Below, in pieces: positions 1-60,754 of a DNA stretch of 64,000 nt. A model generated the notes under the pieces. That model had not been told where the DNA came from, did not search any database, and saw nothing but the letters and a program-made list of their open reading frames with translations. The stretch's first letter is position 1. Every line of letters starts with the position of its first letter. This stretch comes from Taxawa tesnikishii (nom. ined.) (lineage: Eukaryota > Ascomycota > Dothideomycetes > Dothideales): the NCBI GenBank assembly GCA_030247885.1, contig JAPDRO010000022.1, positions 1 to 64,000 on the forward strand. Reading direction: 5' to 3'. Position numbers and translations under genes: made by a program.

Positions 1-70
1 AACCTAACCCTAACCCTAACCCTAACCCTAACCCTAACCCTAACCCTAACCCTAACCCTAACCCTAACCC
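1..70 (+). repeat. Telomere repeat array (CCCTAA)n
   Basis: About eleven CCCTAA units from the first base, the first slightly variant (AACCTAACCC). This is the C-rich strand of the TTAGGG telomere usual in filamentous fungi, so the window begins at a true chromosome end. The array is short, as expected of a clipped assembly end. Confidence 0.97.
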
Positions 71-110
71 ACTCACTCACTCACTCACTCACTCACTCAC
101 TCACTCACTC
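71..110 (+). repeat. (ACTC)10 microsatellite next to the telomere
   Basis: Ten perfect ACTC units follow directly on the last CCC of the telomere array and run into looser CACTCACTC/TTATTC variants. Like the telomere C-strand it contains no G. Confidence 0.9.
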
Positions 111-821
111 TTATTCTTACTCATTCTTACTCTCACTCACTCACTCTCTTTTTCAATGTTTTTTTCTCTTTCTACTTTATTTCTTTCTTTCTATTTTATC
201 TCTCTACTTCTTTTATTCTTCTTATATCTTATTACTCTACTACTTTATTACTTTACTACTCTATTACTCTACTATTCTATTACTCTACTATTTTATTACT
301 CTATTATTTTATTACTTTACTACTTTACTACTTTATTATTTTATTACTTTATTACTATATTTTTATTACTTTCTTATTCTTTTTAAATATTACTTTAACT
401 CTACTAATTTATTATTCCATTCTTATATTACTATATCTCTATTACTTTACTCCTTATCTTTTACTATAAATCTCTTATTTTAACTTTTTTCTTTTATTTC
501 TTTTCTTTCTTTTATTTTATCTCTTCTTATTTTCCTATTTTTTACTTTTATTCTATTTCTATATTATTATATCCCTATTACTTAAACTTTCTTTCTTTAT
601 TCCTTCCTTATTATAACTCTTATTTTCTAACTTACTTATTTTATTCCTTCTCTTTTTTATTACCTTTTCTTTTTTATTATCTTCTCTTTTTCTTTTATAT
701 TATCCTCCCTTACTTTACTTTCCTTTTTACTTTTTTTCTCTTATTCTTAACTAATCTCCTTTTTCTTTTTATATTCCACTATTTTACTTTAATTTCTTTT
801 ACTTTACTATTAAATCTATTA
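111..821 (+). repeat. G-free T/C/A low-complexity subtelomeric tract
   Basis: Degenerate TTATTACT/CTACTA/TTTCTT words. I find one G on the plus strand in this span (position 158). The methionine-led frame at 156-386 lies wholly in this tract and encodes only L/F/Y/T/S-rich low complexity, so no gene is called. Confidence 0.85.
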
Positions 822-1429
822 GTTTTTCTTTTTCTTTCTTTTATCTTTTTTTATCTTAAGAGATATATCTTTTTCTCTTTAAAATATTATACTTGTTATA
901 GAGAGAAATATTACCTTTTTTTTTGAAAATCCTATATAGAGAAATATTGTTCCTTTCTTTAAAACTTAGCTTTTCTATGATTATCGTCTTCTTCATTTAT
1001 ATACTTACTTTTACCCTTATTTATCTAAACCCTAACTCTTAGTTCTATATTATCCTATATAATCCCTAAGGTTTAAGAAGAACTTTATTATACTTTAGGA
1101 TTCTTTCTTAACTTCTTTATAACTTAGCTTAAGTCTATTTAACTAAGTTACTTTCCTTATCTATTAGACTTCTTCTTAACTACTCTAACTAACTTATTAT
1201 TAGGCGTTTACTTTTTGTTAGGACTCTTTCTTGCTTGTCGGAGCTAGTAAGGACCTAACGTATTTACCTCTTAAGCTATTATCTATTTTTTTCCTTCGCT
1301 ACTTCTTCTGTTTTTTCCTTCACTACTTCTTCTGTTTTTTCCTTCACTACTTCTTCTGTTTTTTCCTTCACTACTTCTTCTGTTTTTTCTTATAGGTCGT
1401 TGCTATTAGTTGTCTCTGACCTCGCTATC
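822..1429. other. AT-rich, RIP-like subtelomeric DNA
   Basis: AT-rich DNA with TpA excess and almost no CpA/TpG between the G-free tract and the helicase stop. It holds the 24-bp tandem repeat listed separately and one interstitial telomere-like word (AAACCCTAACTCTTAG near 1027). In the helicase's reading frame it could be the mutated 3' end of that gene (see findings). Confidence 0.6.
1287..1391 (+). repeat. 24-bp tandem repeat, about 4.3 copies
   Basis: Units of 24 bases carry TTTTTTCCTTCACTACTTCT followed by TCTG; the first has CGCTAC instead of CACTAC, the last fades into TTTTTTCTTATAGG. The period is eight codons. Read on the minus strand in the frame of the upstream helicase it gives an open octapeptide repeat, RRSSEGKN. 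Confidence 0.88.
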
Positions 1430-4400
1430 TTAGAACGACAATAAAGCCTTTGCCGCTACTCTGACTCCCTGTACCGCCATTCCGCCTCCAAATCTTGTCT
1501 CCTCTCCCAACCAGTCAAAGAAATCCTCCACCCCGGCGAATCTGCGCCGGAAGTGGTCCTCTAGCCATCTGGCTCCTCCGGCGCTCACGAATATCCCGTA
1601 ACAGAGCGGCAGGACCACGTCTCCGTGCTCACACGCTTCTTCCTTACTGGTCTTGCTGAGCTCAGCCCTTTGGCAGATGGACTGAGGGTTTAGGCACCAG
1701 AAGCAGCTCGTGTACGGACGCAACCACTTTCGTCCGCGTGTCTCGTGCCGCTGCCGTACTCGACTGCGCTCGTGAAACACCTCATGCCGCCGGGCACACT
1801 TGGAGAACTCGTGCTTCCATTCCTCGTCCATCGCACGGCAGAGCAAGCATGTCCCGCGCACGCTGGCCAGGTCCAGACGGTAGTTGACAAGTTCGGAGTG
1901 AGCCTGCAGCCGCTCTTGCTGGATGAGATCGAGTCCGGTGTGGGCGGTCTGCCGTCTTGTCGCGTCCGAGGCTGCGATTGGATCCTCGTGAGCCGCTTTG
2001 CAGACGTCGCAAGCCACGTCTTCCGGCATGCACCACCTTCGGTGCTGAGCGAGATCGAGGTGTTCGCTCAGCGAAGTTCGGAAACATTGCTCGCCTCGTA
2101 AGTACTTGTGCACGGCCTGCTTGTCCCGTCGCTTGCGAAGTGACACGTCGTCCCTGCAGCTGCCCGTCTGCTCCGAACCGACGTCGACGTCGTCTTCGAG
2201 CTGTGCCTGCCACGTCGCCGGCAGGAGAACCATCGAGTACGCCTCCATCCCGTCGCGGCCGGCCCGACCCGACTCCTGCGCGAAGGTGACCAACGAGTCC
2301 GGCTCCCCTACGTTCATGACCAGACGTACATGAGCGTGGTCGAAGCCTTCGGCAAGAGCGGTCGTGGCAACGAGATACGGGCGGTCGGAGGTATGGATCC
2401 AGCGATCAACGATGAGCTTCTTCTGTTCCGGCGTTCCGCTCTTTGCGGTGTATGCAGCACAACCAAGCAGTTGGCACAGGCTGTCCGCGTCCTCACACGT
2501 TCGGACGTATAGGACGATCTTGTCACGGGAATGATCGAACAGGTCGGAGTCGCGCCACGCGTCTTGCGCTTCGACCGCACTCTGCTCCAGAAGGCTGCCT
2601 TTGCGAGGGTCTGCCCTGCGGACCATGTAGAATATGTTGGGTCGGTTGCTCGATGCTCTGATGGTTGTCGGACGGTAGAGGTAGTTGCGCTCCTCAAACT
2701 CCTCTTTCATGGACGGAGGCAGTGTGGCTGTCAGGTAGACAAACTGCGTCCTGAGATTGCGGACCGCAGTAAGGTCGACGATGCTCGATCGGTAGTCAAC
2801 GGCAGTCACCGTCAGGTGGCATTCGTCGATCACGATTCGATCGAGTTTCTGCTGGACGATCAGGCTTCGTGCGTATTTCGTGAAGTGTGTTGTGGCCGCA
2901 GCCTCAACGCTGACGATTATCAGCGATGCTTCTCGACTTTCTCCCGGCAACCATTCGAGGTGAGCGATGTTCAGTTCCCGTATCCGCCGAAGCAGGTCTG
3001 CCCGAAGGGATACGAGCGGCACGATGAGGATGGTGATCCCGGCATCAGGCAGCGTACACGGCAACATGAAGGACAGGCTCTTTCCGGCTCCGGTTGGCAA
3101 GATGGCCACCACCTGCTCCGTCCACGACATGATCGTGGTGAGGGTCTGTTCCTGCTCCCTCGATTTCCACATCATTCTCTGGTTGCCGTAGAGCTTTCTG
3201 AGCCCTTCCAGCAGAGCCTCTGCCGACCACGGTTTGCGGGGCCGATAGACACCCTTGGCAAGTCGTTCCTTCAGTCGACACTCTTCTCCGTCCCTCTTTC
3301 GCTTCTTGCCTTTTAGCATCGTCTCCACTCCCCAGAAGTCCTGCCACAACGTTGACGCGCGAAGTCCCATTCGGATCAGCCCGTCCCACACGTTGCCGAA
3401 GGTCGCTCCCGTCTGATTGGCATACGCCCTGTTGACCGTGCGTGTCTTGTGGTTGCGCTGTCTCGTCATCGCTCGGATATCCTCCTCCATCTCCTCGGCG
3501 TCCTCGTCGTCTTCGTTGACTTCGAAGCAGCCTATGTTGCTCGCAAACTTGGTCTTGACGATGGCCACGCTCATCTGGCGCCAGTTGGAAACGTGAAGCC
3601 GGGGTGTGCACGCCCGAGCACTGGCTTCCTCCAGACAACGACTCAACCGTCCTTCGCCCCACACCTTTCCGTCTTTCTCCCACAAGAACGAGGAGAGCAG
3701 TGCCTTTGGTGATTGCTGCCGCAGAAAGACCTGTCGTAGCGGCACGACATAGACGAGGTAATCCAGCAACAGGTCGCCCACCGGATTGGCGAGAAACCGG
3801 ATGTTTTCCTTGTACCTGCCCGTCTGCTGCTGACCTTTGTGGTATTTGACATGTATCATGACACGATCGTGGCGGAGTGTGATGGATCGTCGTCGTTGCG
3901 TGTTCCGCCAGGTCATGGAGAAGAACTCGCTTTCGCGGATGGGCTGACCGCCACTGATGTGAACGAGGACACACAAGCGTTTCAAGAACTCCTGCACAGT
4001 TGCCTCGTAGCCGGCTAGCGCACTGTCCCTCCAAACGAAGCCGCTCGCTGATCGACGGTCTTGCTGAAGGAAAAGGCGGCACAGTTGCTCGGAACGCTCA
4101 ACGGCGGCCAACAGAGCTTTGTCCGTCCCCCTCAGCAGGAGAGCGTTGTCACGATGCTGGATCAAGCTCCAGCCGACGGTATCGACGTTGCCGCTATCTC
4201 TAAGCGCCCAAGACTGCATGCGGCGTAGGTCCTTCTGACCCAGCAGCAAGTCGTCGTACAGTAGCCGTTCGCACTCACGGTATTCGGAGAGCAGTAGCGT
4301 GGGGATCTGGTCCATACGCAGCTCTGTATCTTCGTATGTCAGGACCTGTTCGCTTTCGTCCCAACAGGCCTCATGATCACCCACGCTGTCCTTCGAGATG

Positions 4401-5864
4401 CGAAACAGCAACAGGCGCCAGCGGAGTATCTCCCCATCGGCGTCTCGGCCGTCTGCTGCAGATAACTCTCACAGCATTCCTTGACGAGCGCGAGCGTTTC
4501 TCCCCACCCTGCCGCTCTTTGCGAGCACAGTCATAGAAGATCAGCAGCTGCGCGACCCATATCATCGCAGACAGACTGCTGTTGAAGTTGCCGGGTTCCA
4601 TCCAGCCTTGCGTAGACGGCTTGATGCTTAGCATCGCGCAGAAGCTCACTATTGGCGAGCGGTACCGTCGGGCTCCGGTAGTGTGACGGATAACGAGCAT
4701 CCATAACTCAACCAGCCCATCTCTCAGTTGGCCCTTGATCCCTTCACCCGTGCCCGTCGCTCCCCGTTCTGCTAACCGACGGAGGTTATGCCACACCACC
4801 CTTTGCTTGTCCGTCGGTTCGATCACGTCCTCTGGCCGGATCGTCTCCTCCGAGTCAGCACTGAAGTGGTACTCGTCACAGATCGCCACTCGCTCCAGGT
4901 ACGACAGGAACTGTGACGCCAGCTTGAAGTAGACCTTGAGCGTGCCGGGCTCCTTGTAAGGATCGAACGGCCGAACCTTCCCAATCGACTCGACCTGCGA
5001 CGACTGGAACCGACTGAGAACGACGCGACATGGCCAAGTGAGCATACAGTCGGGTCCGTCGAAACACCAGCCGTGCGCCTCCCTGAGCACGTCCTCCATC
5101 GCATCGACGATCGTCCGCAGAGGACATCCTTCGTCTCGCGAGGGCACGGCGATCGCTGCTCGGATCTCGTCTTTCTTCAAGCCGCAGACATGGTCGACGA
5201 TGCCGGTCTCTCTGAGCCATGGTACCACGGTAGAACGATGCTCGTCGAATCCGCGGACACGGTTGGCCGCAGATGCGGCGTCGCGCTCTGCCTGAAGGAT
5301 GTCTTCTTCTTGCGTCCGGAAGAAGTCACGCTGGTGACCGGCTCGCCTCCGACCGCAAATCTCCAGGTCCGCTACTTGGACCTCGAAGTACCTCTGCCAG
5401 CTTCCGACCTTGAAGAAACGCTGACAGGCGCGGTCGCAAGACCACAGCTTGTTGTGGGTATGGACCTGCTTCAAACGAGCATCGCCGCCTCGCTTCTGTC
5501 CGTTGACCCAGCCGTGTTGCCGCTCACAATGATCTTGCATGCCACGCGGAGTGCGGCATATATAGGGACAAAGCCTGCCTTCGCCATCTTTCCCGCCACA
5601 CTTCAAGCCGTCGAAGTACACCGGAAGTCCCGTTACGGGAGGCTCTGTTGCTGCTGGATAGATGACATCTGCCTCGACTTGCGCAAGTTCGGTAAAAGAC
5701 CCGACTTTGGCAATAATGTCCCGCCGTTGTTGTAAGCTGAGACGCTTGTGATGCACACGAAGATGTTTGGCGAGCTGCGAAGGTACGACTGCATACTGAC
5801 AATGGATGCAAACAAGGATGCGGTGCTGGGCGACTACTTGGAAGAGACGATGAAAATCATCCAT
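1430..5864 (-). CDS. Telomere-linked RecQ-type DNA helicase with OrsD zinc fingers
   Basis: Large subtelomeric helicase, probably one gene read from 5864 to 1430 (about 1,480 codons). The upstream frame (4377-5864) opens with an OrsD/DUF3505-type C2H2 finger (CIHCQYAVVPSQLAKHLRVHH, split here as CIHCQY...HLRVHH) and a second finger (CPYIC...CERQH). The downstream frame (from 4411) carries the helicase core: Walker A PTGAGKS near residue 437, DECH box near 527, LTATLPP, and motif VI QESGRAGRDG near 715, then Cys/His-rich C-terminal segments. Such helicases sit beside telomeres in many fungi and are thought to help maintain chromosome ends. The two frames are separated by apparent one-base losses in C4 runs at 4502-4505 and 4432-4435; adding one base to each gives a continuous, sensible protein. 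The stop at 1430 lies exactly where RIP-like DNA begins, so the C-terminus may be cut short. Domain calls are firm; gene unity is inferred. Confidence 0.85.
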
Positions 5865-6310
5865 CTGAGTCTTGGCTTGCCTTCACGGCTGCCATACTTG
5901 CGAGGCCAGACATAGCTATATTACCTTTCTAAGGATTTAAAGGATCCATGTGATGCTCAGGATCAATTGTTTAGAGCGTACTGATCACGTCGCATAGACA
6001 CAGGGCTGGTCTTTGTTTGGAGAGGCCGCCCTGCGAAAATGCGGGGAGTGGCCTATGCACAAGGCGCCTCATCTTTTTCCTTTTAAGACCGCCGCCCTTG
6101 ATGTTCCATGTATATGGCATATATATGAGTGGTGTTTGGCATGCAGAGAGAATAACCTTATGACAGTATAGTGTGTGGGTTTCGAGAAGGTTGGGGCTCG
6201 GGAAGGCAAACGAATCGTGGTCAACAGGTGCAAACGAATCGTGGTCGTTCCTCTAACCCTTAGGGTTATAGCCCACGCAAAAGCAAACGAATCGTGGCCA
6301 TTCGTTTGAC
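5865..6310. promoter_or_regulatory. Upstream region of the helicase gene with repeated 17-mers
   Basis: Normal-composition DNA between the helicase start and the RIP island. It holds three copies of GCAAACGAATCGTGG (6206, 6230, 6283), an inverted partial copy (ATTCGTTTG, about 6300-6308), and a head-to-head telomere-like palindrome CTAACCCTTAGGGTTA at 6253-6268. No gene is seen. A regulatory role is only suggested by position. Confidence 0.55.
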
Positions 6311-8990
6311 TTCTACGAGTAGGTCCTCTTTAATAGCTATATACTATAGGAATACTATTACTCTCTTCTTAACTAGTCTTCCGTTAGAACTATAAAGGAA
6401 GTATAGTAGGGTAATACGTACCTCTCTAGCTTTATAAGGGACTTCCTCCTATTATAGACTATACTTCTCTTTATCCTCCTTACTTTAGATCTTATTATTA
6501 ATGCAAATAACGGCTCTACTAGAAGTCTTATTACTACTACGCTCCTATACGTTATACTACTATTCTTTAAAATGCTAGTAAATACTTTTAATTAAGACTA
6601 TATAGTTATCCTTCGTCTTATTTACTAGGGACATAGTTCCTTAGATTATGTTAGTACTATTACTAGCTAAAAGATAGTCCGAATAGTTATCTAAGTAACG
6701 AAATTCGGTCTTACTAGCTCTAGTCGCGTACTTATAATAGTATAGGTAGGAAACTAACTATTAATTATAATCGAGCTATAAGTATACGTAGGCTAGATAG
6801 TATAGTATATCTTAACGGATAACTTACTAGGTATAGTTATAATAGGCGTTACGTAACTAGCCTTAATCGGATTAACTAGTAGGAAGACGAAGATAATACT
6901 TATATATAGTAAGCTCTTTTAGTATATTCTTTATAAGGTCCTCTTTAAATAGTTAGTCGAACATATTAATATTAATAGTACTATCCTTTTAAAACTAGTT
7001 ATAGGCACTTAGAAAAATAGACTTTATAACGGCTTTATAATTGTATTTTTTAGCTAGAGGAACATAGTATTAATATCTATAAAGACTATAAGTATTAGAA
7101 GTATAAGCCGGCCTATAAGACTTATAAAATTAATTTATAGTCTTAGGGTTAGTTCTAAGCTTAGAAGCTTTACTAGATAAAAACTCTCTTATACGTATAA
7201 TTAGCTACTCCCTACTAAGGGCTCTAATATAGTATCTAGCTTTCTAGTAGAGTTAGAAAAGGTATACCTTATAAAACACTTCGTTGTCCTTATTAATAGT
7301 ACGTAGTACCTTCTTTATTAAGTTAGTAATATTAGGATTTAACATCTTACTCGGGAGTTAATCGATCTCCCTTTAAAGAGCTTTATATTCCCTACTAATT
7401 TAGTAACTATAGCTACTTTTCTTCTTTAGAGCTATTTCCTTTATATCTTTCTTATATTACTCTTCCTCTTCCTCCGAATTAGATAGGATAGGATCCTTAG
7501 GTATCTTATTATTATTTATATTCTTACGGAGATTATTACTAAGGTCGCGAGTGTTTTATTTACTAGGATTATTATATAAATTAGTAAGAGTATCTAGATT
7601 CTAGTTAAGAGGTATATTAGCTATCGTTTTACGCTTACGTTTCTCTACTTCCTCCTCTTTAATCTTACGTCTTACTCCTTCTAGAAGTAATAAAAGGGAG
7701 AGTTTTCTAGTATAAGTATATTCGTATTATTAATATTTATAAGTAGAGTTTAGGCGCGGCTACTATATAATAGTTTAATATTAGCGACTTTATAAACTTC
7801 TCCTTGCTTATTAATAGTATATTCTAATATAGTTAAGTACTCGTATTTTCCTTAATTAAGTAGTAGATATCTCTTAGGGTACTCTTTAATATTTTCTAAG
7901 TCCCTAGGCTAGAATAGCTAACTCTTCTTAAAACCTTTACTTCTAGTATAGTTACGATATATATACTTACGAAGGAACGCGTAAACTACCTACTTTATAG
8001 TAAACCCCTTTCTAGCTAGCCGTCTTATTTTAAAGAGGATTATACTACTAAGGTTAAACTAAAAGATATTCGTATTTCTCGTAATTTACTATAGGTTATA
8101 AAGAGTTCTCCTAGCTTCTACTTACTTATTTCTTTTATCGAGAAGAAGTCTTTCCAATCGGATAGCGTTCTTAAAGTCTTCCTAAAAGTTTAGTTTAAAG
8201 GTTATTTTTCTCCTATAGTAGTCCTATAGTAGTAGGAACTAGTATTTACTTAGTCTTTCTTCTTCTTAGGAGATTTTATTACTTAAGTCGAGGGCTACGT
8301 AGTAGTATTTGTCGTTATTACTAATCCTCTTTACTTCTTTAAATACTTAGTAAAATAACTCGGAAATTAGAACGATAAGGTTATTAGCTTTAGTAGTACT
8401 AATAACTTAACTACTAGGTAAGTTAAGTTACGATATAGTAAGTTATAAGTATAGTTAGACTTTAGTAAATATATAGTAAGGAAATACTATCTTCTAGTAG
8501 GTTTCTAAGGTGTCTATAACTACTATACTTGCGAATTATAGTAGCGTTATTAGTAGTAGCTTTAGGGCGTAGTTTCTAGAGGATTTATAGTCTAGTATAT
8601 AAATTTAAATGTTTATTACGTGTTTTACTTCCTTAAAGGAAAATACGGCTAATATTCGGAGATTTTAGTTTTAGAAGTATCCTTCCTTTTACTTCTTTCT
8701 TATTACCCCTTATTACTACTATTACTTAATCCTTTTAACTTATAGTATAAAAGGAATATCTTTTATATAAATATAAACTTCTTATCCTATAAGCTTTACG
8801 CTTTTATTTAGTAATAAGATAAGACTATTATCTTAAGTAAATAAATAAAGGCCTTATTACGAAAGGGGAATATAAAAATAGTAGAGAAATAAATAATAAA
8901 AGAGATTATTAAAAGAGTTAATAAAGGAAATTATCTAAAGAAATAAATAGAAAGATTATTAAAATAATATAGAAATATACTTTCCTTCTT
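6310..8990. repeat. RIP-mutated repetitive DNA, family not recognised
   Basis: AT-rich DNA with stops in all frames and almost no CpA or TpG. It begins abruptly at about 6310. On the minus strand there are traces of an acidic, lysine-rich coding stretch (EEEEE-like run near 7470), so it once encoded protein, but I cannot name the family. It may be the far end of the neighbouring Gypsy fossil or a separate element. Confidence 0.5.
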
Positions 8991-8999
8991 TTATAAGTC

Positions 9000-11900
9000 T
9001 ATTCCTAGACTTAAGTTTTTATATAGCTCCCGAAGCTATATAAAACCTAGCCTATTAGCTAGCTAGCTACTTTATATAATCCTCGTATTATAATAGATCG
9101 AATCCTCGTAGTACGCTAATAATTACCTTTAGGCTTATATCTCTAATATTTATAAGTAATTCGTCCTCTAGTTCCTTATCTTATAAATTAATTTCTAATC
9201 CTTTATCCTTAGGTAAAGGTATATTACCTTTAGTAGCTACTAACTAATCTTATAGCCGTTTAGGCGTAGTTAGGAGGATAGGCTAAATCTATAGTTTTAG
9301 CCGATTTCGGGTATAAGTCCCCTTTATTTTAATACTATCTAAGGTTTCTAGTACGTAAGTACTTATAGGGGTAACGCTTTTAATCCTAGAAGGACTATAC
9401 TATCGAAATAGTAGCTTATCTCTTCGGATTTTCTTACGTTTCGTATTATAGATAAGGACTTCTTATTTAACGTTTAGTTATTTAAACGTAATATTCTTTC
9501 GATTATTAAATTCCTTTACGTTCTACTCTCGCATTCGCTATTAGTATAGTAATATATCCTCTAGGACTTTATCTTGGTATACTAACTATTATACGCGTAT
9601 AGTTACTAAATCTATAGTAGTTTTAATAGTACTTTAGTTTAATACTTATTATAATAGGAATTCTAGTTCGATTAGAAGAACGACATTTCTTTTATATAGG
9701 ATTTATACTAGAGATATATTAATAGATCGCCTTAGCGTAATTTAGTTTACTTATAAGGTTTCTAGTAACTATACGTCCTAGGGCTTACTAAACCTAAAAG
9801 TAAGCTTTAATAAGTAGTTAATAAGGTTCGAATGTCCGCGTTTTACTAATTTATTACCTTTAAGATAATAAGTAAAAGTAATAATCTTCCGAATTTTATA
9901 CTATATAACTAACGTAAATATATAGCCGAAGTTCTTAGGTCCTTCGTTACTAATTAGTTTAGCGAAGTACTTATATTTATAGATAACGTCCTCGTAAAGG
10001 AATCTTATAATAGCCTAGCTATTAGGCTTACGTAATACTTTAGCTTCTAGTTACCCTAATATTAATTCTCTAGCGATAACGAGGTATTCCTTACTACTAG
10101 ACGCGAGTATAAAGATAATATTTACTAACTATACTTCTAAGGACTTGCTAGTAAACCGGATATAATTCCTTTATATCCTTATAGTTAGTACGTATCTAGT
10201 ACTCTAGGTAGCTCGCGTAGTATTTAGAAATATCTTTAAAGGTATTATTTTACTAGTAATAGTTAGTAACCTTTCTATAAGTAGCTTCTTATCCTTAGTA
10301 GCTACTTTTATTATATAGGCTTTAAATAATCTTTCGCCTCTAATCCTCGCTATTAATTACCCGCTATAGTAGTATATTCCTAGTATTTCTCTAAAATAAA
10401 TACTAACCGCGGACTAGATAGTTAAGCGCCTCTTTCTTAAATACGTAAAATTCCTTAAAATCTATAGCTATAGGCTTTTTTAAAGTCGTAAGGTATTCCG
10501 CTATTTTCTAAGATTTCTCTAAGTAACCTTTTACTAACAACATTCTAATAGCGGCTACTATAGTTATAGGGTATATTTTAATACTCCCGTTAACTATAAT
10601 AATATATATAGAAGTAATAAATAAATCTACGTTAATAACTATGTTAATATCTTACTTGTTTAGTATATTATTATTATCCGAAGGATAGTAAGGTCTCCGA
10701 GATAGCGTATCTATAGTAGTATATTTAGTACTAGGTATATATCGAACCTCGAATATAAATAGTCGTATCTAAGCTACTTATCGAACTATAATAAAACTAG
10801 GAAGATCCGAGGATAATTTATTAAGCTACGCTACTAGCGTTTTAGTATTAATTTCTAAGATAAAGAATACGCTATATAGATACGAGCGTACTTTCTTTAG
10901 GGCCTTAAGTACTCTTCTATATTCGCGTTTTTTAGTATTATAGCCGGATTTTATAGTCGTTTAGAAGCTACTTTCGTATTATATTAAATACTATTTCTTC
11001 TTATTATCTCTAGCTAACTATATTAAAATAGCTCCCTATCCGCGAAGGCTAGAATCTATAGCTAAAATAATAGATCTTACTCCTTTAGTATAATTAATAG
11101 ACTTTAGTACTAGAGTATTAGTAAGCTTCGCCTTTAGTAGCTTAACTACTTATTTAGCTAGTTTTCCGAAGGAAAATACTACGTCTTTTGCATAAGTTTA
11201 TATAGTAGTACTACTATATATATAAAGTTTTTTACTTAGAAATAATAGTATAAACTTAAGTTAAGAAATACTCGAATATTTATAATATTCTTAAACTTAT
11301 CTTATTTTAAGATCTTAATAACCTTAGTAGTATCTAAATGTTTACCTTCTAAGTCGTAAATATAGCTAATAATCTTAATTCCGAATATATAGAATTGGGA
11401 TTTTCTTCTAGTAATAGTATAGCTAGTACGTTCTAAATCCGTAAGAATACTATCTAACTAATAGATATACTTTAGAACGTATTTCCGAATACTAGGTACT
11501 ACTTTTACGTCTCCTTCTTTATTAACTAGGCCTTTAATACTAATATTATTTAGAAATAGTAATACTACGTATAAAATATACGCTTCTAAGATTTTAGTAA
11601 TAATTCTTACGAACTACGCTACTAAGTTAGTAGCTCCTTAAAGTAGCGTTATTTATCTTAGTAGTTTTAGAGGAGTTATAAATCCTATTATATCTCTATA
11701 TTTTATAGTAAGTTCTATCTAATCGTATCTAGAGAAGAAGTCGATAAGGGACGTTATTATAAGTCTTATAAATTACTCGCTAAATTTATTTAAATTTAAG
11801 GGTAGATTTCTATTATAAATAGTAATATAGTTAATATTTATAACTATATTAACGATGCGGAACTTATTTTACTTCTTCTTAGTAACGAGAAACTATAGAT

Positions 11901-44246: not shown

Positions 44247-45720
44247 CTAATCCTTGTTAGACATCCACACGGGTTGGGCTGTTGAATCCATACTGCTGCG
44301 AAGGAGAATCGGTTCGATCGGCTCATCGAGGTGCGCGTCTTTGTTTGATCTACAAAATCCTGCAAGACAGTCGGTGGGCTTCAACCCGGCTCTCTTGAGA
44401 ACCATAGTGGCGATGCCTGCCAAAGCGATCAAGAATCCGAATTTTTGTCAGTTCAGTTGTCGTGTATCTTTCGACCAATTCTCCCCACGACTGCTCCAAG
44501 GCCCGCCTATCGCTCGAGCTGGACTTTGTGAGCTGCTCAATAGTATGCAGATCCTCATACCTCCAATTCGTGAAAAAGTTACGTTGATGAGACAGGTCTT
44601 GCACGCACGAGTTTTGCAGCATTCCCACCATGTTTGGTCCCCGGTGAAATGGACTGTGCGCGGAGCGTGTGCGTGCTGTTGCAAAACCCAAGCTCTCTTA
44701 TCCAACGGGCCATCGACCCGGTGTTCCCAAGCCGTTGGATCTGTACATAAGTAGGGTTGGCTGTTGAACTCGGTCCACCAATTCGGTCCTGCAGCCCAGG
44801 GGTTGGTCCAGGGGTTGGTCCATGAAGCTTTCACAAGAAGAGGGGATACTAGGGAGGTACTTTTGTTCTCGAAAAGCCCTCCGTTTCCGTCAGTTGACGA
44901 TTTTGCTGCGATGGTGAGGAATGAGTTTGAGTAGATTGTCGCCATTATCACTGGTTTCTGTACCCAAGCTTTCTTGGAGGCTTGGATGGTGCAAAGTGAG
45001 TCGATCCATAGGTATTGCACACCTAGTGCTCTTGTGAAGGGAACAGCATCCTGGAACGTGTTTGATAGTGTGGTATGTGGACACTTTTTTTGAACTGTGC
45101 AACCTTCTTTGACGACAATCGTACAGGTCCAAATTGGGAACATAGCTCTGATCCAGATCTACGTCCTCATCTTCAAGTAGCTCCACGTACCTGTCGTTTT
45201 CTAGCGATCTTACATCAAGAAGTCGGTATAGGAGCAGTCCGCTAGAGCTTTGTGAGTGTCTTAGTTTCGGCTGGTCCTAGCAGTTTCCATATTCGTCCTG
45301 ACACGGTGAAGCCCAATCGTATGTCTGAGCGACATGCCCAGGCGGGAAGTTTGCGGACAGATTACTGGCTTCAAGTCTATCTTATTCTCGTCAGCTCGAA
45401 AGGAATACCACAGATCTCTTTTTCTCTTGTAGCTTACCTTCCGACTGAGTAAACCTATTGACATGATGGTGATGTAAGCTCTCGGATCATTGTATCGACC
45501 GTCGATGGAATATCCGAATTCCATGGCAAAGGTCGGCGAGATTACTGAGACATAACTGACAGCTTTCTGAATTTCGGTCCTGATCTGTTCCTCTGGAGCC
45601 ATCTTCCAACGTCTCCGAAGACTTTAGGAGCGTGCACAGTGGACAACCTCTTTGTGTACTGATTTCCAACTCTGCAAACTCAAAATGTGTACACGGACTC
45701 CATTCTCCGTTTTTTGACAT
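44247..45720 (-). pseudogene. HET-domain (heterokaryon incompatibility) gene, decayed
   Basis: A minus-strand remnant of a HET-domain protein (PF06985), a family of fungal self/non-self recognition proteins. The N-terminal part has the usual Cys pairs (CTHFEFAELEI..GCPLCTLL). The core block reads TFQDAVPFTRALGVQYLWID followed by SLCTIQ, then IYSNSFLTIAA and RPLDKR-like GPLDKRAWVLQ with HFTGDQTWWEC. The last part reads W-ELVERYTTTELT and LIALAGIATMV. These lie in several frames, so it is broken in several places unless some gaps are introns. Decayed HET genes are common near fungal chromosome ends. Confidence 0.7.
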
Positions 45721-57794: not shown

Positions 57795-60754
57795 ATGTTC
57801 GACCTTAGGAGGACGATGCGGAGCATGCTCAAGCGTCAAAAGTCGTCGAAATCGGCCCACTCGGCAACGACTGAAAGCCAATCCAGCAGAGCCGCAAGCA
57901 CAAACTCGACGAACAACACTGCTCCGTCCACGCCCACACCTCACGCTCCCTTTCACGACAATCCTTACAGACGTCCTCGCAAGAGTGCCTCTACTGCTTT
58001 GCTGCAGGAAAAGTGCTATCCTGCGTGTTCGATAGCCGAGGAAGCCGTTGAGGTGCCTAGCGACGACGAAGAGGAGGAGGGCAAGGACGAGAGACAGAGC
58101 CAAGTCGAAACGCTCGCGGATCGCCGATTGCCTCTCCATCTCGATAAACCACACGACACACAGGACACGCACGACCTCCGACTGGAGCACGTCGATGGAC
58201 TGCAGCAGCAGCAGCAGCAGCCGCCAACCCTTGCAGTACAGGAGCCCACTCCGGATGCTTTGAACAACCCTGCGAGCCTGCCAGGCACCTTCCCCAGAGA
58301 CGACGCAGAACACACTCCTGGGTAAGAAAACATGTCTCTCTGGACCAGACGACTGTCCATCTCTATACTAGACACCGCCGACAGCCTCCTGTCCTGCAAA
58401 CATTCGCGGCTCAACCCACACCTACATACATGTATCCCTACAGTCGATCACTCTCAACTCTAATCCCCGGCTTTTCTCTTCCGCTTGCTCCATCCTCTTT
58501 CTTGTTTTGCACTGCTGACCATGATCCACCCTCGCCAGACCACAGCCACAGCCACAACCACAACCATCTCATTCAAACGAATCCCTCAATCCCAACACTG
58601 CCGACCATCGCGACTCGATAGCCTCTGGCACCTCTCCCGGCGCCACTCCTGCCGTCCGTCCTACAGACACAACTGTCCGCCGACAGTCCATCGTCAACGG
58701 CGCCAACGCTCGTCTCATCAAGACACTACTCGACACCTCTAGCGGTCCTCGTCCCTTCTCGCCTGTTACACCCTCGGCGCCCGACTACTTCAGCCAAGTC
58801 CCTACCACGAACATAGCAAGCATGCTGCATCGAAAGATATGGGTCAAGCGAGCCGGTGCTTCCCCAACAATGGTGTCGATACGGGAAGATGATTTGGTCG
58901 ACGATGTGCGGGACATGATCCTCAAGAAGTACGCCAATTCGCTGGGAAGGAGCTTTGATTCGCCAGACGTCATACTGCGCATAGTGTCCCGGGCAGAGAG
59001 TCAGCGCGACCAAGTAAAGGAAAGGATGCTGGGTCCGGAAGAGGAGATGTGCAGGACATTGGACGCCTATTACCCTGGCGGACAGACGGTCGATGAGGCT
59101 CTCATCATCGATGTTCCACAGCGACGAACACCACGGCCATCACCCCGTGCGTTCCATCAGATGCCGACCGGTTACAGCGCGCTTGACGACTACCGTCCCG
59201 CAGAGACTGGCACAGACTACTTTCCTCAGATGCCTGCGGTTATTCCCCGTCGAATCCGGCAACCGCTAGCTCTCACGACACCCGATCAACGCTCCTCAGC
59301 GGCAATCCGGCGATACCTGAGCATGCCCGCTCTATATCTGTGCTCAACACTGGTCAGGTCCCACCACTTCCTTCTCCAGGTGGCAGAAGCCGTCTCCAGC
59401 GAGAACACCGCCCCAAATACCAGCGCCAACACACCTCCTCGCCAACCATCATCATGAGCCAGCAACCTTCCCACGCATCTAACGCCGGCGCTGTGGCTGC
59501 TAATCCTCCCAACCTCGCCGCCCTTCAACACCTCACGCATCGTAACTCTGCCCGTCCACGTCTCGAATCCACCGCATCCGACCATAGCAGCATACCCGCC
59601 GCACCTCCTCTCCCCACTCCTCCTGCACCTGAAGCTCCTCCCACTGGAAAAGGAGCCGGTGGAAGCACGCCCCCAACTCCAAATGGACCACCACCACACC
59701 GACCGTCACGGGGTCGGAAGACCAGGAAGCCGACGCCAACGAACGGCACCTCGCCCTCTGAACTAAAAGCCACCACTCCCAACCCGTCACTGCCGTCCTC
59801 ACTACTGGACGGCTCGGTTCCACCCATCAACGTGCTGATCGTCGAGGACAACCTGATCAACCTGCGCTTGCTGGAGGCGTTCATGAAGAGGTTGAAGGTG
59901 CGCTGGAGCACGGCCATGAACGGGCAAATCGCTGTCAACAAGTGGCGCGCCGGCGGCTTCCACTTGGTGCTCATGGATATCCAGCTCCCAATCATGAGCG
60001 GTTTGGAAGCGACCAAGGAGATCAGACGGCTTGAAAGGGTTAATGGGATCGGTGTTTTCAGTAGCAGCACGCCAGCGAGTCCAGAGGCTAAGAACGGCGC
60101 GTCTGAGAGCTTGAATGGGGCCATCGGGGAGGATGGGGCTGATGGGGAGCAGGCAAATGGGGAAGAGAGCGCGGCCGAGAAGAAGAATGACCCGAGTGAC
60201 GACAAGTTGAGTATGGAGGAGGGGCTGTTCAAGAGTCCGGTCATTATTGTTGCACTCACGGCCAGTTCGCTGCAGAGTGATCGGCACGAGGCGCTGGCTG
60301 CTGGGTGCAATGATTTCTTGACAAAGGTATGTGAAGAAAAAACCCCATTACCACCGCGCTCCTATCCTACACCATCCACCACACCAGTCCATCTGGCTAA
60401 CTCCATCTCCAGCCCGTCAACTTTGTCTGGCTCGAGCGAAAAGTTAAAGAATGGGGCTGCATGCAAGCGCTCATCGACTTTGACGGCTGGCGCAAGTGGA
60501 GGGATTTCGCTTCTGATGCCAACGTTAAGAACAAGTCGGCCAGTGGCGTGGGAGAAAAGAAGGACGCCAAGGGCGACAAGTTGGCCGAGTTGGCGGCCAA
60601 GAAGGCGAAGAGGGAGAAGAGGGTCAGTGCGGATGCGCAGGGGTTAGCAAGGTCGTGGCTGTGGAGCAGGGGTTGGGGGATGCTGTTGAGGGATAGGAGG
60701 AGGAGGAGGAGGAGGAGGAGAAGAGACAATGCAGGGAGGAGATGGAGGAGGTGA
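57795..60754 (+). CDS. SSK1: SSK1-type response regulator of the HOG stress pathway
   Basis: Cytosolic response regulator that receives phosphate from a histidine phosphotransfer protein and controls the Ssk2/22 MAPKKK of the osmostress (HOG) pathway. Exons: 57795-58321, 58539-60326, 60413-60754, with introns of 217 and 86 bp. Exon 1 starts MFDLRRTMRSMLKRQKSSKS and has a Q6 run. The conserved KIWVKRAGASPTM...DDLVDDVRDMILKKYANSLG block lies in exon 2. The receiver domain reads INVLIVEDNLINLRLLEAFM, phospho-acceptor Asp in VLMDIQLPIMSG, ALTAS and NDFLTK|PVNF across intron 2, with a long Gly/Glu-rich insertion before ALTAS, usual for fungal Ssk1. The frame breaks at C4 59245-59248; one more C gives VIPPSNPATASSHDT. 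The literal end at 60754 yields a poly-Arg tail; a frame ending at 60800 (EYVLLGDGSEASHTV) looks more natural. Confidence 0.92.

Follow-up and report, generated by a model that had tools for sequence, protein, structure and literature searches.

Genes for telomere-linked helicases (TLHs) are a long-recognised feature of chromosome ends in fungi, where their function is unsettled. Other chromosome-end or recombinase-encoding elements include the Y' elements of yeast, which are terminal repeats with a helicase gene that spread by homologous recombination, the telomere-dwelling HeT-A, which is spread over chromosome ends, and the Cryptons, small elements that encode a tyrosine recombinase (YR) and use a short target. 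In excerpts of PMC12857005, FoTeR is described as living at telomeres and spreading across chromosome ends, and tlh-containing regions of F. oxysporum are set out in a table of full and truncated units. For the Ustilago TLH family, an OrsD domain is reported (excerpts of PMC10532341), and the YR gene of Starships is typically the first gene at the 5' end of the element (excerpts of PMC12289983). A possible role in telomere maintenance is mentioned in excerpts of the TLH literature. Neither a recombinase module nor an exact inner end with a target preference is mentioned in the excerpts of PMC12857005 and PMC10532341, and a count of the word "recombinase" in the main texts of PMC12857005, PMC10532341 and PMC8381367 gave 0. 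No description of a recombinase in a TLH was found in the titles and abstract openings of the literature searched, itself a partial coverage, and the novelty of the module described below is judged against that partial literature.

Here the analysis covered a window of 64,000 nucleotides that forms one end of contig C15 in a genome of 29.4 Mb and 34 contigs. With the TLH families of Magnaporthe, Fusarium, Ustilago (UTASa/b) and S. pombe (tlh1), this locus shares a RecQ-type helicase gene repeated beside telomeres, and its RecQ core, multiple copies and telomere-adjacent position identify it as a TLH. We consider it probable that this TLH is the gene of a 6.3-kb chromosome-terminal mobile element that moves its own unit onto chromosome ends and that combines OrsD fingers, a YR-like module and a RecQ helicase. 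The unit and its gene are laid out as follows.

1..70, plus strand: telomere repeats (CCCTAA)n, the outer end of the unit (sequence)
1..6322: the TLH unit, a block common to chromosome ends that runs inward from the telomere and stops at a single exact base (blastn, 51 exact inner ends, 36 junctions)
1433..4468, minus strand: downstream open frame of the TLH, 1012 aa (P0001), with the YR-like module, the RecQ core and a Cys-rich C-terminus (ORF list, domain search)
2234..3202, minus strand: RecQ-type helicase core with TGAGKS (Walker A) and a DECH box (domain search, PDB profile)
4380..5882, minus strand: upstream open frame of the TLH, 501 aa (ORF list, domain search)
6313..6322, no strand: terminal palindrome CTACGAGTAG, with 6322/6323 as the junction with unique chromosomal DNA (junction reads)

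The TLH frame starts at 5882 on the minus strand, about 440 bp from the inner end at 6322, and points into the unit. A profile search placed an OrsD zinc-finger-like domain at 5511-5846 in the upstream frame (E 1.5e-23), and the best PDB relatives of the helicase core (DEAD/Helicase_C) were RECQL5 (E 1e-25). In a Pfam-type search of both frames, only the OrsD, DEAD and Helicase_C domains scored above the cut-off; these are the only recognised domains of the unit in a search that covered the two TLH frames, which are overlapped by other open frames of at least 100 aa and up to 350 aa. The two TLH frames themselves overlap, the window frame being broken between the OrsD part and the module part, and a 52-nt GT-AG stretch at this break could be read as a putative intron. 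The frames vary among TLH copies through small indels. Elsewhere in the window, a 435-aa frame at 59340-60647 (plus strand) contains a response-regulator receiver motif and is one we take to be SSK1-like, and a frame at 44448-45143 (minus strand) contains the motif LWIDSLC, presumably a HET-like motif.

The inner end of the unit was found to be exact. A search with the terminal 22 bases (...CTACGAGTAG|) returned 51 places in the genome, all without a difference though two mismatches were allowed, and the same pattern read backwards gave no match. By contig end, the 51 inner ends pair with 51 close copies of the TLH OrsD region (50 whole and one partial), the other eight OrsD matches in the genome being divergent. 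Fifty of these inner ends, one of them at the join in scaffold C2, sit 6.2-6.4 kb from a contig end or telomere, with C16 outside this count; the TLH unit is carried by 50 of the 68 contig ends when C16 is counted. The right end of C2 reaches a telomere, with a different TLH further in. At ~865,180-865,700 in the same scaffold (L251), a run of N lies between two telomeres, so that two chromosomes stand end to end, and the copies on C2 at ~850-891 kb were dropped as internal TLH copies because they are close to the joined telomeres. In blastn comparisons across nine loci with terminal copies and the C2 copy, the terminal copies matched the window to 6322-6324 and no further, three loci starting inside the unit. 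Specifically, all 36 distinct junctions (36 of the 51, from 38 views with two same-place repeats, L028 and L031, dropped) read the end ...CTACGAGTAG| at the same base, each with a different flank, and some of the flanks belong to the same repeat families cut at different points.

In the part of the genome sequence compared, element-free relatives were found for 25 of the 36 flanks and none for the other 11, and the two bases before the junction in these relatives were AG in 18, AA in four, TA in two and TG in one. The frequency of AG thus stood at 18/25 against a background of 7.7% (binomial p 2.5e-15). Because the relatives are diverged repeats (identity of 70 to 98%), the original site is an inferred one, and the AA or TA sites may be mutated AG. 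When the alignments were limited to those starting at flank base 1, AG was present in 15 of 20, and a scan of 33 offsets gave 18/25 at the junction with a next best value of 7. Both the G at -1 and the A at -2 survived correction for 300 tests (1.7e-9 and 7.9e-6, respectively); a G/C preference at +12 was significant in the 25 relatives (corrected p 5e-4) and not in the 36 flanks (0.4). Since one exact junction base stands beside 36 different flanks and the targets prefer AG, we conclude that the TLH unit is a discrete element, one whose inner end is defined and which has a target preference, and that it has not spread by homologous recombination alone. Its mobility is well supported, and the exact end together with the target preference points to an enzyme that recognises the end.

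A hint of defined ends also comes from a different TLH (L249:3355-8501 and L034:1585-6727), which stands at the start of a block that two chromosomes share, 14,323 and 14,336 bp away from their telomere ends. The long frame lies ~238 bp downstream of the start of each copy of the block, the flanks of the two copies are different, and the sequence is shared over the ~8 kb compared downstream, a comparison that stops ~6 kb short of the telomere. This boundary could be secondary, since one of the flanks ends at a 54-bp inverted repeat. A possible pogo/Tc1-type transposon (type assigned by eye) with 54-bp terminal inverted repeats, at L249:1893-3355, abuts the second TLH unit.

The first-pass annotation, made from the window alone, had read the residue layout of a tyrosine recombinase at 3400-3960, between the OrsD fingers and the helicase core. 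The downstream frame P0001 does read GGQPIRESEF, HVKYHKG, SNWRQMSVAIVKTKF and NHKTRTVNRAYA there, and the domain search agrees on the position between OrsD and the helicase core. The five residues are all present, and only their numbering, which had been given about 20 too low, needed correction, as below.

3332..4030, minus strand: YR-like module, about residues 147-379 of the downstream frame (conserved columns, profile alignment)
3935..3937, minus strand: R178, box I Arg (R-x-x-E, with E181 invariant too; alignment)
3836..3838, minus strand: K211, candidate beta-hairpin Lys (YHKG; alignment)
3578..3580, minus strand: R297, box II Arg (WRQ / YRH / YRQ; alignment)
3449..3451, minus strand: H340, box III His (alignment)
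3422..3424, minus strand: Y349, candidate nucleophile, nine residues past H340 (alignment)

Conservation of these residues was compared among divergent relatives from the same genome, obtained by genome searches and alignments: L009, L249/L034B (two near-identical copies of one gene), L034A, L028, L032, the stop-containing L029 and L035. The heavily degraded L035 was in neither half alignment, L029 was left out of both, and the Lys of L034A in the N-half is unreadable owing to a frame break. The N-half alignment (window, L009, L249, L032 and L028) gave 86 ungapped columns with four invariant (R178, E181, K211 and R224), and the C-half alignment (window, L009, L034B, L028 and L034A) gave 95 ungapped columns with six invariant (R297, I303, F315, Y349, W375 and F378). 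With five rows per half, R178, K211, R297 and Y349 are therefore four of the 10 invariant columns among 181 ungapped. The suggestion that R, K, R, H and Y might be held constant among homologues was thus borne out in that they do not vary freely and four of them are invariant. At least four of the five named columns would be invariant by chance with a probability of ~2.4e-5 (hypergeometric, treating all columns alike, which is generous, and taking K211 and not K208 as the intended Lys). As the positions had been named before any homologue was seen and four of them fall among the 10 invariant columns of 181, this agreement exceeds chance.

Closer examination of the individual motifs showed the box I Arg as R-x-x-E, with R178 and E181 invariant in five rows, an invariant Lys between the two Arg boxes in the form of K211, at a candidate hairpin position, and, in the window protein, the box III His nine residues before the Tyr. 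That position is His in four of the five aligned rows and Arg in L034B; box III of L032, read separately in another frame, also has His nine before Tyr, and the stop-containing L029 retains the two Arg residues as well as the Lys and Tyr, with Tyr replacing H340. One of these relatives, L009 on C2, shares 41% identity with the window protein over the aligned stretch, with values of 45% in the module, 47% and 38% in the helicase pieces, 32% in the linker and 27% in the C-terminus, so that the module is conserved between the two to about the same degree as the helicase. At L034:457-1305 and L028:3168-3863, a module is found downstream of an OrsD match with no helicase directly after it; tentatively, an OrsD-module pair may exist apart from RecQ, perhaps as separate genes, the frames being broken there.

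Next to the inner end, the unit contains a set of repeats.

6206..6297, plus strand: three direct copies of GCAAACGAATCGTGG, at 6206, 6230 and 6283 (sequence comparison)
6254..6268, no strand: telomere-like palindrome TAACCCTTAGGGTTA (sequence)
6284..6308, no strand: inverted repeat CAAACGAAT-CGTGGCC-ATTCGTTTG with 9-bp arms and a 7-bp spacer (repeat scan; 9-pair stem)

The inverted repeat at 6284..6308 is 14 bp from the inner end and is one of two in the unit (arms of at least 9, spacer 3-12), the second 9-bp-arm repeat being at window 2044-2072 in the C-terminal coding region of the TLH. As single-stranded DNA, the 122-nt inner-end stretch folds better than 200 of 200 shuffles (z -3.6), and in its best fold the last arm pairs with an outer repeat and not with the near arm. 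In loxP-type sites the junction lies within the spacer of the inverted repeat. A loxP-like crossover site was not adopted for the TLH unit, its junction being 14 bp outside the repeat.

The module appears to be the sole part of the TLH able to break and join DNA, and catalysis by it would account for movement of the unit in the following way. The TLH would bind the repeats and the inverted repeat adjoining the inner end, and the Tyr of the module would break and join one strand at ...GAGTAG|. An AG site in subtelomeric DNA, which may be an eroded end, would then receive the inner end, the distal DNA being lost or having gone beforehand; such a reaction would be one-ended, which we infer from the outer side of the unit being telomere. 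The RecQ part could open the unit and replication could copy it out to its telomere, a process that RecQ activity would suit, or the unit might be carried over together with its telomere, and the outcome would be a new telomere-capped copy on another chromosome end.

One alternative keeps the unit mobile and makes of its module an inactive or domesticated recombinase, or a plain DNA-binding domain, strand transfer being carried out by host or other enzymes. The box II His/Lys at -3 (HxxR) was not found in the six rows, which have Ser, Ser, Leu, Gln, Arg or Val instead, and this, along with the Arg of L034B in place of H340 and a register with known recombinases that hinges on the catalytic columns themselves, would be in keeping with such a loss of activity. 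Invariance of R, K, R and Y amid an otherwise diverged module is the pattern of an active site, however, and the two TLH frames yielded no other domain for strand transfer, so that we regard an inactive module as unlikely while giving it real weight.

It is improbable that the likeness to tyrosine recombinases is due to chance, the module being some other DNA-binding fold with a conserved Arg, Lys and Tyr. The module had no match above the cut-off in Pfam, PHROGs, NCBIfam or PDB profiles, as a chance likeness would predict, and the sub-threshold names were unrelated (for the window piece of the module, SFTA2 at E 0.016 and DUF3108 at E 0.019 in Pfam, and two PHROGs at E 0.3). The PDB profile search of the module gave nothing at E 10, PF00589 had no match in the whole genome at E 10, and PF11917 (DUF3435) had none in the TLH frames, with one sub-threshold place elsewhere (C24, E 0.02). 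The AlphaFold2 model of window 3281-4147, run on the single sequence without an alignment, had a mean pLDDT of 32.2, too low to tell one fold from another. Outside the genome, no relatives of the module were found in viral contigs or, by tblastn, in plasmids, and a contig search of other genomes returned one match, to query residues 125-161, in a bacterial MAG.

The module was further compared with a profile of 72 tyrosine recombinases, comprising lambda Int, Cre and 70 sequences from viral contigs with a typical box III motif (80 loci listed, 10 of them without a usable frame). Profile-profile alignment with eight module rows, including L029, brought the five columns into register under each of three gap settings, and at the middle setting the score of 37.8 exceeded all 60 column shuffles (22.0 +/- 2.5, maximum 29.0) and the reversed module (24.4). 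Masking these columns in both profiles left a score of 26.9 at the middle setting, above that of masked shuffles (17.9 +/- 2.4, maximum 24.7) and of the reversed module (21.5), but the register was lost: R178 was shifted by two columns and H and Y by 11, while K211 and R297 had no aligned partner. With hhalign against the 72 recombinases, only box I was in register, at a probability of 3%, although the score of 21.9 exceeded the best of 40 column shuffles (14.4) and the reversed control (15.9). Because masking destroys the register, the sequence is better evidence for an active site like that of recombinases than proof of the complete fold. What argues against chance is that the residues were named beforehand, that the R-x-x-E box and the nine-residue His-Tyr spacing are present, and that the unmasked, in-register alignment outscored every shuffle. 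The TLH module likely belongs to the tyrosine recombinases, though it lacks the box II His/Lys and a profile match.

Ordinary subtelomeric spread, by homologous recombination, break-induced replication or duplicative capture between ends, is as doubtful as a chance likeness. Copying of terminal blocks of this kind is described for failed telomeres of Pyricularia in excerpts of PMC8381367, and the TLH copies are near-identical, so that copying between ends is ongoing or recent: those compared had 0-1 mismatches over 4.35-6.3 kb, with indels as the main differences. The comparison over 4.35-4.55 kb took in 25 loci, made up of the window itself, four repeats of a place and 20 other places. These indels look more like sequencing noise than decay. 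Spread of this type would be expected to leave varying breakpoints or carried flanks, whereas the 36 junctions share one base beside different DNA and their targets prefer AG, and the data thus oppose it as the sole mechanism. An AT-rich, RIP-like composition marks the DNA flanking the unit, both at window 6323-9000 and in the majority of the 36 flanks, whereas the TLH unit, for all its copies, is nearly free of substitutions; its spread therefore seems to post-date the last RIP.

Still less probable is a different chemistry, either Helitron-like rolling-circle transposition or telomeric retrotransposition in trans. Helitrons have a 3' CTRR after a hairpin, insert at A/T and encode a Rep/HUH protein. 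The inverted repeat 14 nt from the inner end of the TLH unit recalls such a hairpin, but the unit ends in GTAG and not CTRR, its insertion follows AG and not A/T, and neither a Rep/HUH nor a reverse transcriptase domain scored above the cut-off in the two frames, the nearest RT-related name being a sub-threshold zf-RVT match (E 0.27). Retrotransposition with priming at the 3' end of a sense TLH transcript would place the 3' end of the gene inward, whereas here the 5' end is inward. An assembly artefact in which terminal sequence was pasted onto contig ends is barely credible, for although scaffold C2 is chimeric, with two telomeres joined via a run of N, and most differences among the copies are indels of the sort that noisy long reads produce, pasting would not yield an AG preference in element-free relatives and the copies have indels of their own.

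The preferred reading, a terminal element moved by its own recombinase-like module, sets the TLH unit beside several known systems. In common with Starships, the TLH frame comes first at the inner border and points inward, and its YR identity is a candidate one; the unit would work, by analogy, like YR elements with a captain-first layout. It differs from Starships in having no DUF3435 match, in being only 6.3 kb with one recognised gene and a RecQ fusion, and in having a telomere at its far end in place of a second chromosomal border, and because of these differences the unit is not a Starship. From Cryptons, compared by description only, it differs in having no match above the cut-off to YR-related Pfam families, in the helicase fusion and in its terminal position. 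Of the mobile-element descent or chromosome-end role suggested in the first-pass annotation, the general idea gains from the junction evidence, which was not available at that stage, and a specific Crypton or Starship ancestry finds no support in any match. The yeast Y' elements differ in that TLH junctions read exact at one base. Spread over telomeres is shared with the telomeric retrotransposons MoTeR, FoTeR and HeT-A, but the TLH unit has no reverse transcriptase domain, its polarity is reversed and its junction follows AG in other DNA and not telomere repeats.

If the module is active, TLHs would be mobile elements that add copies of themselves, telomere included, to chromosomes. Their copy number, identity and position would thereby be explained, and they would provide a DNA-transposon counterpart to the telomeric retrotransposons. 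The question can be addressed directly, since it turns on a single tyrosine, a defined DNA end and a dinucleotide target. More tentatively, and with slightly less than even confidence, we propose that TLHs act as transposases for a class of DNA elements of its own, the terminal tyrosine-recombinase/RecQ elements, which would have one sequence-defined end and one telomere, join AG sites and replicate to the telomere, so that a selfish element caps most chromosome ends.
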